Part shown: positions 9,239 to 35,352 of the stretch, piece after piece | Numbering within the stretch: position 1 is the first letter of the stretch | Layout: each line of letters starts with the position of its first letter | NCBI GenBank assembly: GCA_040388375.1 | Contig: JAZKBU010000006.1 | Coordinates: forward strand, 310,001-374,000 | Direction of reading: 5' to 3' | Length of the DNA stretch: 64,000 bases | Source of the DNA: Bacteroidota bacterium | Lineage (GTDB): Bacteria > Bacteroidota > Bacteroidia > UKL13-3 | Notes under the pieces: generated by a model | What the model saw: the letters and a program-made list of their open reading frames with translations, nothing else | Told to the model about the DNA's origin: nothing | Databases searched by the model: none | Program-made: the position numbers and the translations under genes

Positions 9239-10657
9239 TTATCTAACTACAATATTGCCATACCTATCTACTAAATTAGTAAACTGTAGGGTTTGAAAGG
9301 CTTGAAAATTGGTTTGTCCCTTTTTCATATCTACAAAAAATTCATTCTTTTCTAATGAATCTTTATTGCTTGTTTCTAAACGTATTTTCTGTGGCCCAAC
9401 TGGTAAAAACATTCGGGTATAATTAATAGAATATGGCAATAACTGCCAATTTCTGGTATCAGCCTGCTCTGTAAAAGTATTTAATAAATTAAGCGCCAAG
9501 CCCGCTCCTTCGTTTTGGTTACGTGCTACTTGCTCTGCAGCTTGTTTTAAAGCCAAGCGTAATACTGCTTCACCTATTTCTTTCAGCATCCTGTCATCTA
9601 AGCTTTTATAGGCTATGGCATTAATATCTTCAGCCAAACACAAATCGCTTCTGTTGTTTAAACTATCTACAATTTGTGCTTTGTTATAAAGTGGCACCCG
9701 CGTTAAATATTTAGGCCAAGCTACTCTCACAACTTTAAGTCTTGACAAGCTTTTTTTCTCGTCTTCACTACCTACGTAAAAAGGAAAATGCAATCCTAAG
9801 TCGGCATTTACAAAATCAACCCAACCGTTTTGTAAAGGTATTATGGCAAAGTTAATGGAGTTCTCATCTTTAACCGGACCTAAACCATTGTTCCAAAAGA
9901 AAACCAAAGGAGCGGTTCCTTCAGGCATTGGCTGCACTTTCATATTAAACTCACTTTCGTATTGGCTCACTTCTTCACTAAAATGAATTAGTCGGGCAGT
10001 ACGCAAAATATCTTTCTTTAATTGCAGAGGAATATCGGTGCCTAACTGGGTAACATAATCTTCTTTGTATATGTTATAAGCATTTCTATAAGCAATAAAA
10101 GCATTGTTATAATCTTGTTGTGCATCGTAAATCATACCCAATAAATTATGGGCAAAAGCATCGCGCCTGTACTTGTTTTTATTTTTATATAAATCGTTTA
10201 CGCGTTGGCTACTTTCTATCATTCTTTTGCAAGCAACCAAGGCATTATCATAATCTCCCAATTGCACAAAATTCATGGTTGAATAATAGTGTATGAGTAT
10301 TTGCTCAAATGTTTCTCCGTTATAGGTAGTAAAATTGGGATTGGTAAATAAACTTACAAAACTCTCTGCATAGTTTTTTCTAAAATCTTCTACAAAATAG
10401 TCCGCTTGCTTAAAGTACAGATTGCTTTCAGTATTTTTTCCATTCATCCAAAGTACAGTGCCTTTGTTTAAATAAAACAGCAAAAGATTGCGTTTAGGTT
10501 TTTGCCATTTTTTATCTTTCATCAAGGTTTCCGCTTGATTTAAGTTTCCATTATAAACAGCTTGCATTAAATCATAACTTTTCTGGTAGTAAGTGGTACA
10601 AGCACTTAACACCATAGTTATAACTATTGCTACTAATATGACTACTCTAGATTTGAT
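9239..10657 (-). CDS. COG3014-family lipoprotein (start codon unusual, probably ATC)
   Basis: A protein of about 470 residues. After a lipobox (VLSAC) comes an all-helical TPR-like region (about 30-220 of the mature part, with LLGMIYDAQQDYNNAFIAYRNAYNIY) and a beta-rich C-terminal region (PLVFFWNNGLGP onward). This is the COG3014 family, which is typically encoded with LpoB and YcfL and is linked to outer-membrane-side control of peptidoglycan synthases. The first ATG (10615) gives only MVLSAC, too short for a signal peptide. The frame stays open upstream and encodes a complete lipoprotein signal, K-S-R then VVILVAIVITMVLSAC, with no ATG, GTG or TTG before a stop. An ATC at 10655-10657 followed by AAA (Lys) is the best start. 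It lies downstream of lpoB, with a hairpin between them. Confidence 0.85.
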   Translation of the reverse strand: MKSRVVILVAIVITMVLSACTTYYQKSYDLMQAVYNGNLNQAETLMKDKKWQKPKRNLLLFYLNKGTVLWMNGKNTESNLYFKQADYFVEDFRKNYAESFVSLFTNPNFTTYNGETFEQILIHYYSTMNFVQLGDYDNALVACKRMIESSQRVNDLYKNKNKYRRDAFAHNLLGMIYDAQQDYNNAFIAYRNAYNIYKEDYVTQLGTDIPLQLKKDILRTARLIHFSEEVSQYESEFNMKVQPMPEGTAPLVFFWNNGLGPVKDENSINFAIIPLQNGWVDFVNADLGLHFPFYVGSEDEKKSLSRLKVVRVAWPKYLTRVPLYNKAQIVDSLNNRSDLCLAEDINAIAYKSLDDRMLKEIGEAVLRLALKQAAEQVARNQNEGAGLALNLLNTFTEQADTRNWQLLPYSINYTRMFLPVGPQKIRLETSNKDSLEKNEFFVDMKKGQTNFQAFQTLQFTNLVDRYGNIVVR

Positions 10658-20319: not shown

Positions 20320-21159
20320 CTATTTATTTGACCCTTTCCTTTTATAGGTAATTAACGGCACACCAAGTGTTGTTTCCAACTTATAAAATGAAGCCATAAA
20401 ATCGCGTTTAGCTTGTTCAAAACCAGCTTCGGCTATAGCCATAATATTACGCAGTCTGCTTAACTCAGCAGGTGGAATTTTTCCTCTTTTCATTTCAATC
20501 AAAGCCAATTCAGCCGTAATCCTGCTCGATTCCAAATCCTGACTTTTTACCCACAACATTTTTTGAAATGAAATTAAATTAAAATAATCGTCAATAATCT
20601 GGCGCTTGTAAGCTCTTTTCACATCGTCCTGTTTGTGCTTCGCCATTTCGGTTTCGTAGTACAACGATTTCATTCTGGCTTTACGCCCCGCTATATCACC
20701 CAAAGGCAACACTATATTTATACCTACCCTGTACCCAATACCTAAACTTTGTGTTGATACATCAGTAGTAACATTACTGGCAACTACCTGGTTAACTTGA
20801 TTGCCATAAGCGTAGTTATAAAACAATTGGATAGAGTTTAACCATATCCATTTAATATAATCACGGTTGTATTTAAATTTATTGGTTTCGGCAATGGCCA
20901 TTTTTAAAGGTGCCGAATTTTCTGTTACGGTTATTAAAATAGAATCAAGCGGTATTAACTGGTCGCCTAAATCTTCATTCATGTCAAAAATGTTAGTATC
21001 AATTTCTGTAATGGCCACATTTACTTTGCCATTATTTTCCAGCAACCTGTTATTCAAGCTATCTATTTTTTCTCCTATTTGGGCATGGCTCAAAAACCTT
21101 AGCTGCATGAATGCAACTAACAATAACAGGGAAATAATATTTGATTTAAATGTTTTGAT
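20320..21159 (-). CDS. Short TolC-family outer-membrane protein (start probably ATC)
   Basis: About 279 residues. A signal peptide ends at FLSHAQ. After a linker comes one TolC/OEP-type repeat, with beta-strand segments around IGYRVGINIVLPLGD and long helices (MAKHKQDDVKRAYKRQIIDDYF, split by MKRGKIPPAEL). Full TolC proteins have two such repeats (about 430-480 residues), so this is half-size and probably assembles from more subunits. The first TTG (21123) would leave a truncated signal peptide, whereas the open frame upstream supplies K-T-F-K-S-N and the rest of the hydrophobic core, starting at an in-frame ATC (21157-21159) just after a stop; there is no ATG or GTG. It is the first gene of the polysaccharide operon, and no Wza-like gene is present. 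Confidence 0.75.
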   Translation of the reverse strand: MKTFKSNIISLLLLVAFMQLRFLSHAQIGEKIDSLNNRLLENNGKVNVAITEIDTNIFDMNEDLGDQLIPLDSILITVTENSAPLKMAIAETNKFKYNRDYIKWIWLNSIQLFYNYAYGNQVNQVVASNVTTDVSTQSLGIGYRVGINIVLPLGDIAGRKARMKSLYYETEMAKHKQDDVKRAYKRQIIDDYFNLISFQKMLWVKSQDLESSRITAELALIEMKRGKIPPAELSRLRNIMAIAEAGFEQAKRDFMASFYKLETTLGVPLITYKRKGSNK

Positions 21160-33230: not shown

Positions 33231-34343
33231 ATGAAAATTATAACACAAATAAGTCGAATTTTTGTAGGCGTACTATTTATTATTTCAGGCTTAATAAAAG
33301 CCAACGATACACTGGGGTTTAGTTACAAACTGGAAGAATACTTTGAAGTATTCAACATGACCTTTTTTGTACCTTATGCAGTTGGTTTGGCTATGTTCAT
33401 TTGCATTTTCGAAATTATATGTGGTATAGCCCTTTTATTAGGCGCTTACACCAAATTAAATGCATGGTTGCTGTTGCTCATGATAGTGTTTTTTACTCTA
33501 CTCACAGGCTACTCTGCCATTACCCACAAAGTAACCGACTGTGGCTGCTTTGGCGATGCCGTTAAGTTAAAACCTATCGAATCCTTCTATAAAGATTTGA
33601 TACTTTTAGCACTCATCCTAATTATATTTTTAGGACAAAAACATATTCAACCTTTAATGAAAAAAACATTGCAAAATTTAGCCATGTCCGTTTCATTATT
33701 AGTGGTAAGCTTTTTTACTTTTTACACCTATATGTTTTTACCCGTTAAAGATTTTTTACCTTATAAAATTGGAAACAATATCAAAGAAAAAATGGTATGC
33801 CCTCCGGGCTCACCTGTTGACTCTATTGTAATGATGTTTGTATATGAAAAAAATGGCGTTAAAGAAGAATTTGACATGAACCATATTCCATCAGATACCA
33901 ACTATAAATTTGTTGACAGAAAAGATGTAGTAGTGAGAGAAGGATGTAAACCACCTATCCATGATTTTAACTTAACAGGTGAAAACGATATTAACTATAC
34001 CGATAGTTTATTTGCCAGTCAGGGATATAAATTAGTACTCGTTCAAAAATCAATTGATGAAGGAAGAAAAGGCTTAGAAAAACAAATAGCACAATTGGCT
34101 GCTGATTGTATCAACGATAAAAAAGAATTTTGGGCTTTAACCTCTACTTCTGCTGATAGAACAGAAAAATACAGGCACGAAAATCAAATGGCATTTAAAT
34201 ACTATATGGTTGATGTGGTTCCACTTAAATCAATGGTTCGTTCAAACCCAGGCCTTATATTAATGAAAGGAAGCACCGTTGTAAAAAAATGGAGCGCTTA
34301 TAACTTCCCTACTTATGATATAGTGGTGAAATACATGCAATAA
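33231..34343 (+). CDS. DoxX-like membrane protein of the BT_3928 type
   Basis: A 370-residue inner-membrane protein. The N-terminal four-helix DoxX-like unit (about 1-140, RIFVGVLFIISGLIKANDTLGFSYKLEEYF) carries the pair of Cys in DCGCFGDA (about 102-109) that is typical of MauE/DoxX relatives. A fifth helix follows (about 148-170), then a periplasmic domain (about 180-370) with CPPGSP and a thioredoxin-like layout (EFWALTSTSADRTEKYRHENQMAF, PGLILMKGSTVVKKW). The Cys pair and thioredoxin-like C-terminus suggest thiol-redox chemistry, but no canonical CxxC is seen in the C-terminal domain. It is 32 bases after the DUF1599 gene. Confidence 0.82.
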   Translation: MKIITQISRIFVGVLFIISGLIKANDTLGFSYKLEEYFEVFNMTFFVPYAVGLAMFICIFEIICGIALLLGAYTKLNAWLLLLMIVFFTLLTGYSAITHKVTDCGCFGDAVKLKPIESFYKDLILLALILIIFLGQKHIQPLMKKTLQNLAMSVSLLVVSFFTFYTYMFLPVKDFLPYKIGNNIKEKMVCPPGSPVDSIVMMFVYEKNGVKEEFDMNHIPSDTNYKFVDRKDVVVREGCKPPIHDFNLTGENDINYTDSLFASQGYKLVLVQKSIDEGRKGLEKQIAQLAADCINDKKEFWALTSTSADRTEKYRHENQMAFKYYMVDVVPLKSMVRSNPGLILMKGSTVVKKWSAYNFPTYDIVVKYMQ

Positions 34344-34402
34344 AGAGTTCATTGCTTAAGTAAATACACTCCTTATCCATTCATTGTTTAGTTTTATCAA
34401 TC

Positions 34403-34918
34403 ATCGAAAAATCCATTACATATATTGTTGGTATGCCGGGCAGTGGTAAATCATCATGGGGCAAACAATTAGCCAAACGGGTTAATTATGCATTCGTTGA
34501 TTTAGATGATTTAATTGAACAAGAAGAAAAGCAAAGTATCATCACCATTTTCCAAACCCAGGGCGAAGCCTTTTTTCGTGAATTAGAACATAAATATTTA
34601 CTCCGTACAACGAGGTTAATAAAAACCATAGTTAGTTGTGGAGGAGGCACTGCAAGTCATTATAATAATATGGAATTAATGAACAAGCATGGAAAAACTA
34701 TTTATTTAAATGCATCAAAAGGCTTATTGGCTGATAGAATTTTTAACGCTAAGAAGCCCAGACCTATGTTTAAAGACCTTTCAAAGGAAGAAATTGAAAA
34801 AAAAATCGACCTCCTTCTATCTGAAAGAGAATCGTTTTTCAAACTCGCTCAATATACCTTTAGTGTTCCTCAAGAAAGCCTGCAAAGCTTTGTCAATAAA
34901 GCATCTTGGCTTATTTAA
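34403..34918 (+). CDS. aroK: Shikimate kinase (start codon unusual, probably ATC)
   Basis: About 171 residues. The P-loop GMPGSGKSSWGK lies at the very N-terminus, followed by the shikimate-binding VDLDDLIE, FRELEHK and VSCGGGTA motifs and the lid RPMF. The first ATG (34433) would start inside the P-loop and delete the first beta-strand that every P-loop kinase needs. The frame continues upstream as E-K-S-I-T-Y-I-V-G, exactly a first strand, and reaches a stop without any ATG, GTG or TTG; tandem ATC codons at 34400-34405 are the natural start. It phosphorylates shikimate for aromatic amino acid synthesis. It is a single gene between the DoxX-like gene and HU. Confidence 0.9.
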   Translation: MEKSITYIVGMPGSGKSSWGKQLAKRVNYAFVDLDDLIEQEEKQSIITIFQTQGEAFFRELEHKYLLRTTRLIKTIVSCGGGTASHYNNMELMNKHGKTIYLNASKGLLADRIFNAKKPRPMFKDLSKEEIEKKIDLLLSERESFFKLAQYTFSVPQESLQSFVNKASWLI

Positions 34919-35076: not shown

Positions 35077-35352
35077 ATGGCTAACAAATCAGACTTAATC
35101 GATTCAATTGCAAAAGCTGCAGGTATTACTAAAGTTCAAGCAACAGCTGCACTAGATGCATTCATGTCAACTACTCAAACTGCTTTGAAGAAAAACGACA
35201 AAGTAATCTTAGTTGGTTTTGGAACTTTCTCAGTAACTAAACGTGCTGCTCGTAAAGGACGTAACCCTCAAACAGGTAAAGAAATTAACATTCCAGCTAA
35301 AAAAGTTGTTAAATTCAAAGCTGGAGCAAACTTACAAGCTAAAGTTAAATAG
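35077..35352 (+). CDS. HU-type DNA-binding protein
   Basis: A 91-residue histone-like nucleoid protein: MANKSDLIDSIAKAAGITKVQA, the beta-arm ARKGRNPQTGKEINIPAKKVVKF with the tip Pro that intercalates in DNA, and a short Lys-rich tail. Length and sequence match HU rather than IHF alpha or beta, and the generic HU name is safest. It is abundant and cytoplasmic, bending and compacting DNA. It has its own promoter and terminator. Confidence 0.95.
   Translation: MANKSDLIDSIAKAAGITKVQATAALDAFMSTTQTALKKNDKVILVGFGTFSVTKRAARKGRNPQTGKEINIPAKKVVKFKAGANLQAKVK

Follow-up and report, generated by a model that had tools for sequence, protein, structure and literature searches.

A conserved AUC codon as the predicted start of shikimate kinase in a genus of Bacteroidota

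In one genus of Bacteroidota, the shikimate kinase gene (aroK) is very probably translated from a conserved AUC codon, replaced by AUU in one species, in a manner independent of a Shine-Dalgarno (SD) sequence. The codon lies at positions 34403-34405 of the forward strand of the window, i.e., the whole 64,000-nucleotide stretch of DNA that was analysed. The initial annotation of the window had proposed that the gene starts at ATC instead of ATG, and this is the best explanation of the data, since the aligned codon is ATC in nine of the ten genomes of the genus and ATT in the remaining one. ATC is among the start codons listed in genetic code table 11.

The aroK frame is open from 34364 to 34918 (+), between a stop at 34361-34363 and its terminal stop at 34916-34918. 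The absence of any in-frame ATG, GTG or TTG, noted in the initial annotation, was confirmed from the preceding stop up to the ATG at 34433-34435, which is the first canonical codon and encodes the second residue of the P-loop (GMPGSGKS, 34430-34453). Two ATC codons stand in tandem before it (34400-34402 and 34403-34405). Read from the second one, the gene (34403-34918, +) has 171 codons and a stop. The locus has a similar organisation across the genus: a MauE/DoxX-like gene (33231-34343, +) occupies the same upstream position in all ten genomes, separated from the start by a leader of 59 nt in the window (34344-34402) and of 59-236 nt across the genus, and a small gene encoding a presumably HU-like protein (35077-35352, +) lies downstream in nine genomes, the contig of the tenth ending before it.

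Conservation of the start region

We compared the window genome (G000) with nine relatives of the same genus (G001-G009), whose AroK proteins are 54-58% identical to that of the window. In all ten genomes, the 20 codons preceding the P-loop lack a canonical start; 34 codons upstream, an in-frame TTG is present in G001 and G002. The initial annotation had asked whether ATG replaces ATC in close relatives, and the alignment shows that it does not. Nor is sequencing error a tenable source of the missing ATG, because ten assemblies agree on the lack of a canonical codon near the P-loop. The ten genomes share kinship, and the counts across them are therefore not independent. Starts of the AUH kind can be recognised by two features: several species have no canonical start where one is expected, and an AUH codon is conserved where coding conservation begins. 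The former is observed in ten genomes out of ten, the latter as nine ATC and one ATT.

Canonical starts are the rule outside the genus. We could parse 102 of 110 loci, giving 89 rows from outside the genus (with at least one locus present twice). In 86 of these, a canonical codon precedes the P-loop by 4-20 codons; in the other three, an ATG precedes it by 21-30 codons. In a survey of the family, 58 of the 61 genomes searched gave a match, and a canonical codon is present between the stop and the P-loop in each of the 49 matches that come from other genera. In the AroK protein tree (57 rows, with the family rows G079 and G064 left out, one further locus unparsed, and 'ATG' meaning any ATG 5-30 codons upstream), the lack of a canonical start is explained by one change on the branch leading to the genus, with high support (99/97). 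Genes with only GTG or TTG make up 18 of 47 aroK loci outside the genus versus 9 of 75 other loci taken without a check of family membership (p 0.0014, the rows being related). Predicted weak starts thus recur among the aroK genes of the family.

Sequence conservation locates the start within the tandem. When sequences from different clades of the genus are compared in blocks of 15 nt, mean DNA identity stays at 0.27-0.32 from -75 to -16, rises to 0.48 at -15 to -1, and reaches 0.80 with the block starting at 34403. This leap at the second ATC implies that the start is 34403 and not 34400. The proposal that the tandem as a whole is the natural start was accordingly retained for the second codon, where conservation sets in, and judged less likely for the first, where the nine relatives carry ATT or GTT in place of the ATC of the window genome. 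A start one codon upstream, or at another nearby non-canonical codon, is improbable, even if it has some points in its favour: the 15 nt before 34403 are partly conserved (0.48 versus around 0.3 in the leader), and the preceding codon is always ATC, ATT or GTT. However, GTT is found there in four of the ten genomes and would require two mismatches with the initiator, whereas at 34403 all ten genomes have ATC or ATT.

The codon at 34403 is itself unusual for this genus, where ATC accounts for 7.2% (G000) and 6.9% (G006) of the Ile codons in sampled genes. In aroK, it represents 9 of the 153 Ile codons found outside codon 1 in the ten genomes versus nine of ten at the start (Fisher test of codon conservation, 2.6e-9, a value that overstates the case because the rows are related). 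The conservation extends to the following codons. In G001-G008, the columns with an invariant amino acid also have an invariant codon in 7 out of 7 cases within the first eight codons, versus 33 out of 75 later in the gene. Second positions are variable in three of the nine codons from 2 to 10, and since this stretch is short, the coding signal that it provides is modest.

The predicted product and the P-loop ATG

The aroK product matches the Pfam profile SKI (1.6e-35). Its closest solved relative, searched with a profile of the genus, is the enzyme of Bacteroides thetaiotaomicron (3vaa, 1.2e-40), which is also the best fold match of the structural model (E 6.1e-11, TM 0.75). The protein therefore has the SKI domain, the P-loop and the fold by which shikimate kinases are recognised. 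The window genome contains no other SKI match, and chorismate synthase is present in all ten genomes of the genus. The product is a predicted shikimate kinase, an enzyme needed for aromatic amino acids.

The AlphaFold2 model of the protein read from ATC has a mean pLDDT of 79.1, which falls to 61 over residues 1-10 and below 50 for residues 1-3. At this weakly modelled end, strand 1 comprises residues 7-10, just ahead of the first ATG (residue 11). This agrees with the initial annotation, which had placed the first ATG inside the P-loop and predicted that a start there would remove the strand: with the same reservation on the model, having strand 1 before the P-loop requires residues encoded upstream of that ATG.

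It is very unlikely that the protein begins at the P-loop ATG (34433). This is the first canonical codon and the one that a gene finder would choose, and Pfam SKI gives the protein cut at this position 123.4 bits, as good as the 123.1 bits of the full one. Yet the equality arises because the Pfam model starts after strand 1, and a misannotation would therefore stay invisible to it. A start at 34433 would deprive the enzyme of strand 1 and of the first glycine of the GxxxxGKS motif, the conservation begins ten codons earlier, and G008 carries a TTG at this place. Furthermore, the methionine is also present in relatives that have their own upstream start, and is thus best regarded as a residue of the fold.

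Leaders, initiation and other candidate ATC starts

We searched the 25 nt upstream of the aroK start for six SD-like motifs and found none in any of the ten genomes. The gene thus lacks the strong or extended SD seen in the Staphylococcus aureus cases and in sigR (see below), which is a trait of those known cases and not of AUH starts as such. The nucleotide at -3 is A in six genomes and G in four, and the A positions reported as favourable in Flavobacterium (-6, -12/-13) are only partly present in the aroK leaders. Among 303 control starts, 51-97% are at least as structured as those of aroK. Four leaders, all from one clade (G001, G002, G007, and G008), have no G in 60 nt; such leaders were found for 0 of 154 sampled genes in G000 and 2 of 149 in G006. 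We also observed that the leaders of several relatives (L002, L003, L005, L006, and L010) are made up of low-complexity repeats that contain little G and many CTTCATAC-like units; with the counting pattern applied, few arrays of this sort (0, 1 and 5) were recorded elsewhere in the samples. The leader of G003 (L008) has a short palindrome-like insert, CCTGAGCGTAGTCGAAGG, which is missing from the other nine.

The leaders also bear on the idea that the N-terminus arises by programmed frameshifting from a start in another frame, or by read-through from the DoxX-like gene. The constant presence of this gene upstream of aroK and an out-of-frame TTG at -19 in the window genome would fit such a scenario. 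However, in the other nine genomes the 54 nt upstream are free of ATG, GTG and TTG in all frames, which disfavours frameshifting, and the leaders are dissimilar in sequence and variable in length. We regard this explanation as highly implausible.

Translation from 34403 would probably rely on the standard initiator tRNA. We could read the anticodon of 31 of the 32 tRNA genes of the window genome. Three are CAU, and one of these tRNAs (C1:390931-391002) is of the initiator type, judging by its features; no initiator tRNA with another anticodon was found among the 31. Ordinary genes start with GTG or TTG in 28 of 154 cases in G000 and in 16 of 149 in G006. Since only a CAU initiator was found, no SD motif was detected and Bacteroidota initiate without SD pairing (PMC6847099), AUC would most likely pair by two bases with the ordinary initiator, and do so inefficiently. 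The protein would then probably begin with formyl-methionine, in spite of the third-position mismatch. If translation does begin at 34403, initiation would be weak, limited by IF3 and free of any SD sequence, and it may have been retained because a low output of AroK is tolerated or favoured. A more specific scenario, which we put forward tentatively, is that AUC, and not AUU or AUA, was fixed as an IF3-limited throttle on the flow toward chorismate in the sole shikimate kinase, with the ATC and the first eight codons being selected together as an SD-free element that few genes of the genus share.

The initial annotation mentioned, without naming them, two other genes of the window with an ATC start. 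By scanning the window we found two candidates, of which one is well supported at the sequence level and the other just plausible. The first encodes a lipoprotein with TPR repeats (9239-10657, -; TPR matches), with a putative ATC start at 10657-10655; its first ATG falls inside the lipoprotein signal. In three of the ten genomes (the window genome, G005, and G009), the hydrophobic core is preceded by ATC AAA alone, with no canonical codon. The sequence is TTG ATC AAA in G001, G002, G007, and G008, and there is a TTG elsewhere in G003, G004, and G006. The second encodes an outer membrane efflux protein (20320-21159, -; OEP, 3e-16) and may begin with the ATC at 21159-21157. A TTG within a hydrophobic stretch is the first canonical codon of this gene. 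A clear orthologue was recognised in four relatives (G003, G004, G006, and G009), all of which have ATG.

Other such genes are rare in the window genome. In an 838-kb sample of G000, we identified 659 ORFs of 110 aa or more; in 86, the first canonical codon lies at least 14 codons in. We read only these 86 by eye, and three seemed headless: aroK, the TPR lipoprotein gene, and the efflux protein gene. No further ATC-start case was recognised by eye among the 659 sampled ORFs. All three headless genes of the 838-kb sample lie in one 64-kb window, and in each of them ATC is followed by AAA or GAA. This clustering may be due to chance or to the limits of reading by eye.

We then turned to orthologous pairs (161 between G000 and G006, 42 between G000 and G004; G004 and G006, at around 93% DNA identity, are too near for an informative comparison) and inspected the flagged rows. 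Only aroK was judged headless in both genomes. Among the other genes flagged for conserved sequence before their canonical codon, two form a divergent gene pair, and in a third, presumably atpB-like, the conserved sequence is an overlap with the upstream ORF. One additional locus, L149 (G000:C6:304898), whose product we take to be deoxynucleoside-kinase-like, shares with its G006 orthologue (contig C7) a conserved stretch, with six of seven residues in frame, directly before the aligned GTG/TTG start; no overlapping ORF accounting for this stretch was found at G000:C6:304898.

A habit of using AUC throughout the genus is thus supported neither by the orthologous pairs nor by the reading of ORFs. 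The same holds for a genus-wide change of the machinery, such as an altered initiator tRNA or a relaxed IF3, which would make AUC an ordinary start. The three genes of the window that seem to use ATC before AAA or GAA are what such a change would produce, but ATC was never found opposite the start of an ATG-start orthologue (311 alignments in both directions, from 181 pairs). With no further case in the 659 ORFs and no non-CAU initiator among the tRNA genes read, we give this explanation very little credit.

Relation to known non-canonical starts

Conserved non-canonical starts have been described in a few genes. The start of infC is AUU (ATT) in Escherichia coli and ATC in Streptomyces (PMC5472188). 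In S. aureus, AUA or AUU starts have been described for infC (AUA), ccpN (AUA), cvfC1 (AUU), and citZ, with AUH starts giving around 10% of the output of AUG in poor medium and ccpN up to 30% in rich medium; infC, ccpN, and cvfC1 carry extended SD motifs (PMC13009471). The GTC start of sigR is conserved in the genus Streptomyces and has been reported to act through IF3 to reduce output (PMC5472188). In Flavobacterium johnsoniae, start choice is associated with weak structure, upstream adenines and the scarcity of other AUGs (PMC6847099).

The aroK start resembles each of these systems in part. Like infC, it would be a conserved AUH start, and ATC itself is on record for the infC of Streptomyces (PMC5472188; PMC13009471). 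Unlike the infC of S. aureus, which has an extended SD (PMC13009471), no such motif was found at aroK. Direct autoregulation is unexpected, because the product of aroK, unlike that of infC, is not an initiation factor; regulation of the infC type was thus ruled out, as the product is not IF3. In the three infC loci of the genus that we read (L284 in G000, L285 in G007, and L290 in G006), TTG comes first among the canonical codons, in contrast to the AUU, AUC or AUA known from other bacteria.

As in sigR, the non-canonical start is kept across one genus, but sigR encodes a sigma factor, has a strong ribosome-binding site (AGGAGGTG), and uses another codon, GTC (PMC5472188). The ccpN (AUA) and cvfC1 (AUU) genes of S. 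aureus also have conserved AUH starts, but they rely on extended SD pairing (PMC13009471), whereas aroK has AUC and no SD-like motif. The likeness to F. johnsoniae lies in SD-independent start choice and in upstream adenines, such as the A found at -3 in six of ten genomes; it differs in that the favourable A at -6 and -12/-13 are only partly present in aroK and in that AUC starts are not mentioned in the available part of that study (PMC6847099). In the open-access literature searched, no report of this case was found, either for shikimate kinase or aroK with non-canonical starts, or for AUC/ATC starts (those on ATC being mostly mitochondrial) and non-canonical starts in Bacteroidetes. The kind of start is known from infC, sigR, and ccpN; its occurrence in this gene, in this lineage and without an SD appears to be new.

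These results have consequences for annotation. The aroK gene is likely annotated from inside the P-loop in this genus, gene finders would shorten the protein, and other starts may be similarly hidden. They also matter for our understanding of initiation. In the known conserved cases (infC, cvfC1, and ccpN of S. aureus and sigR of Streptomyces), the strong or extended SD is thought to aid the weak codon (PMC13009471; PMC5472188). This raises the question of how the ribosomes of this genus find so weak a start. If the AUC of aroK is indeed the start, its conservation without an SD would show SD-independent initiation to be tolerant of a codon mismatch, and the gene would offer a natural case in which to test the fidelity of IF3 in Bacteroidota.
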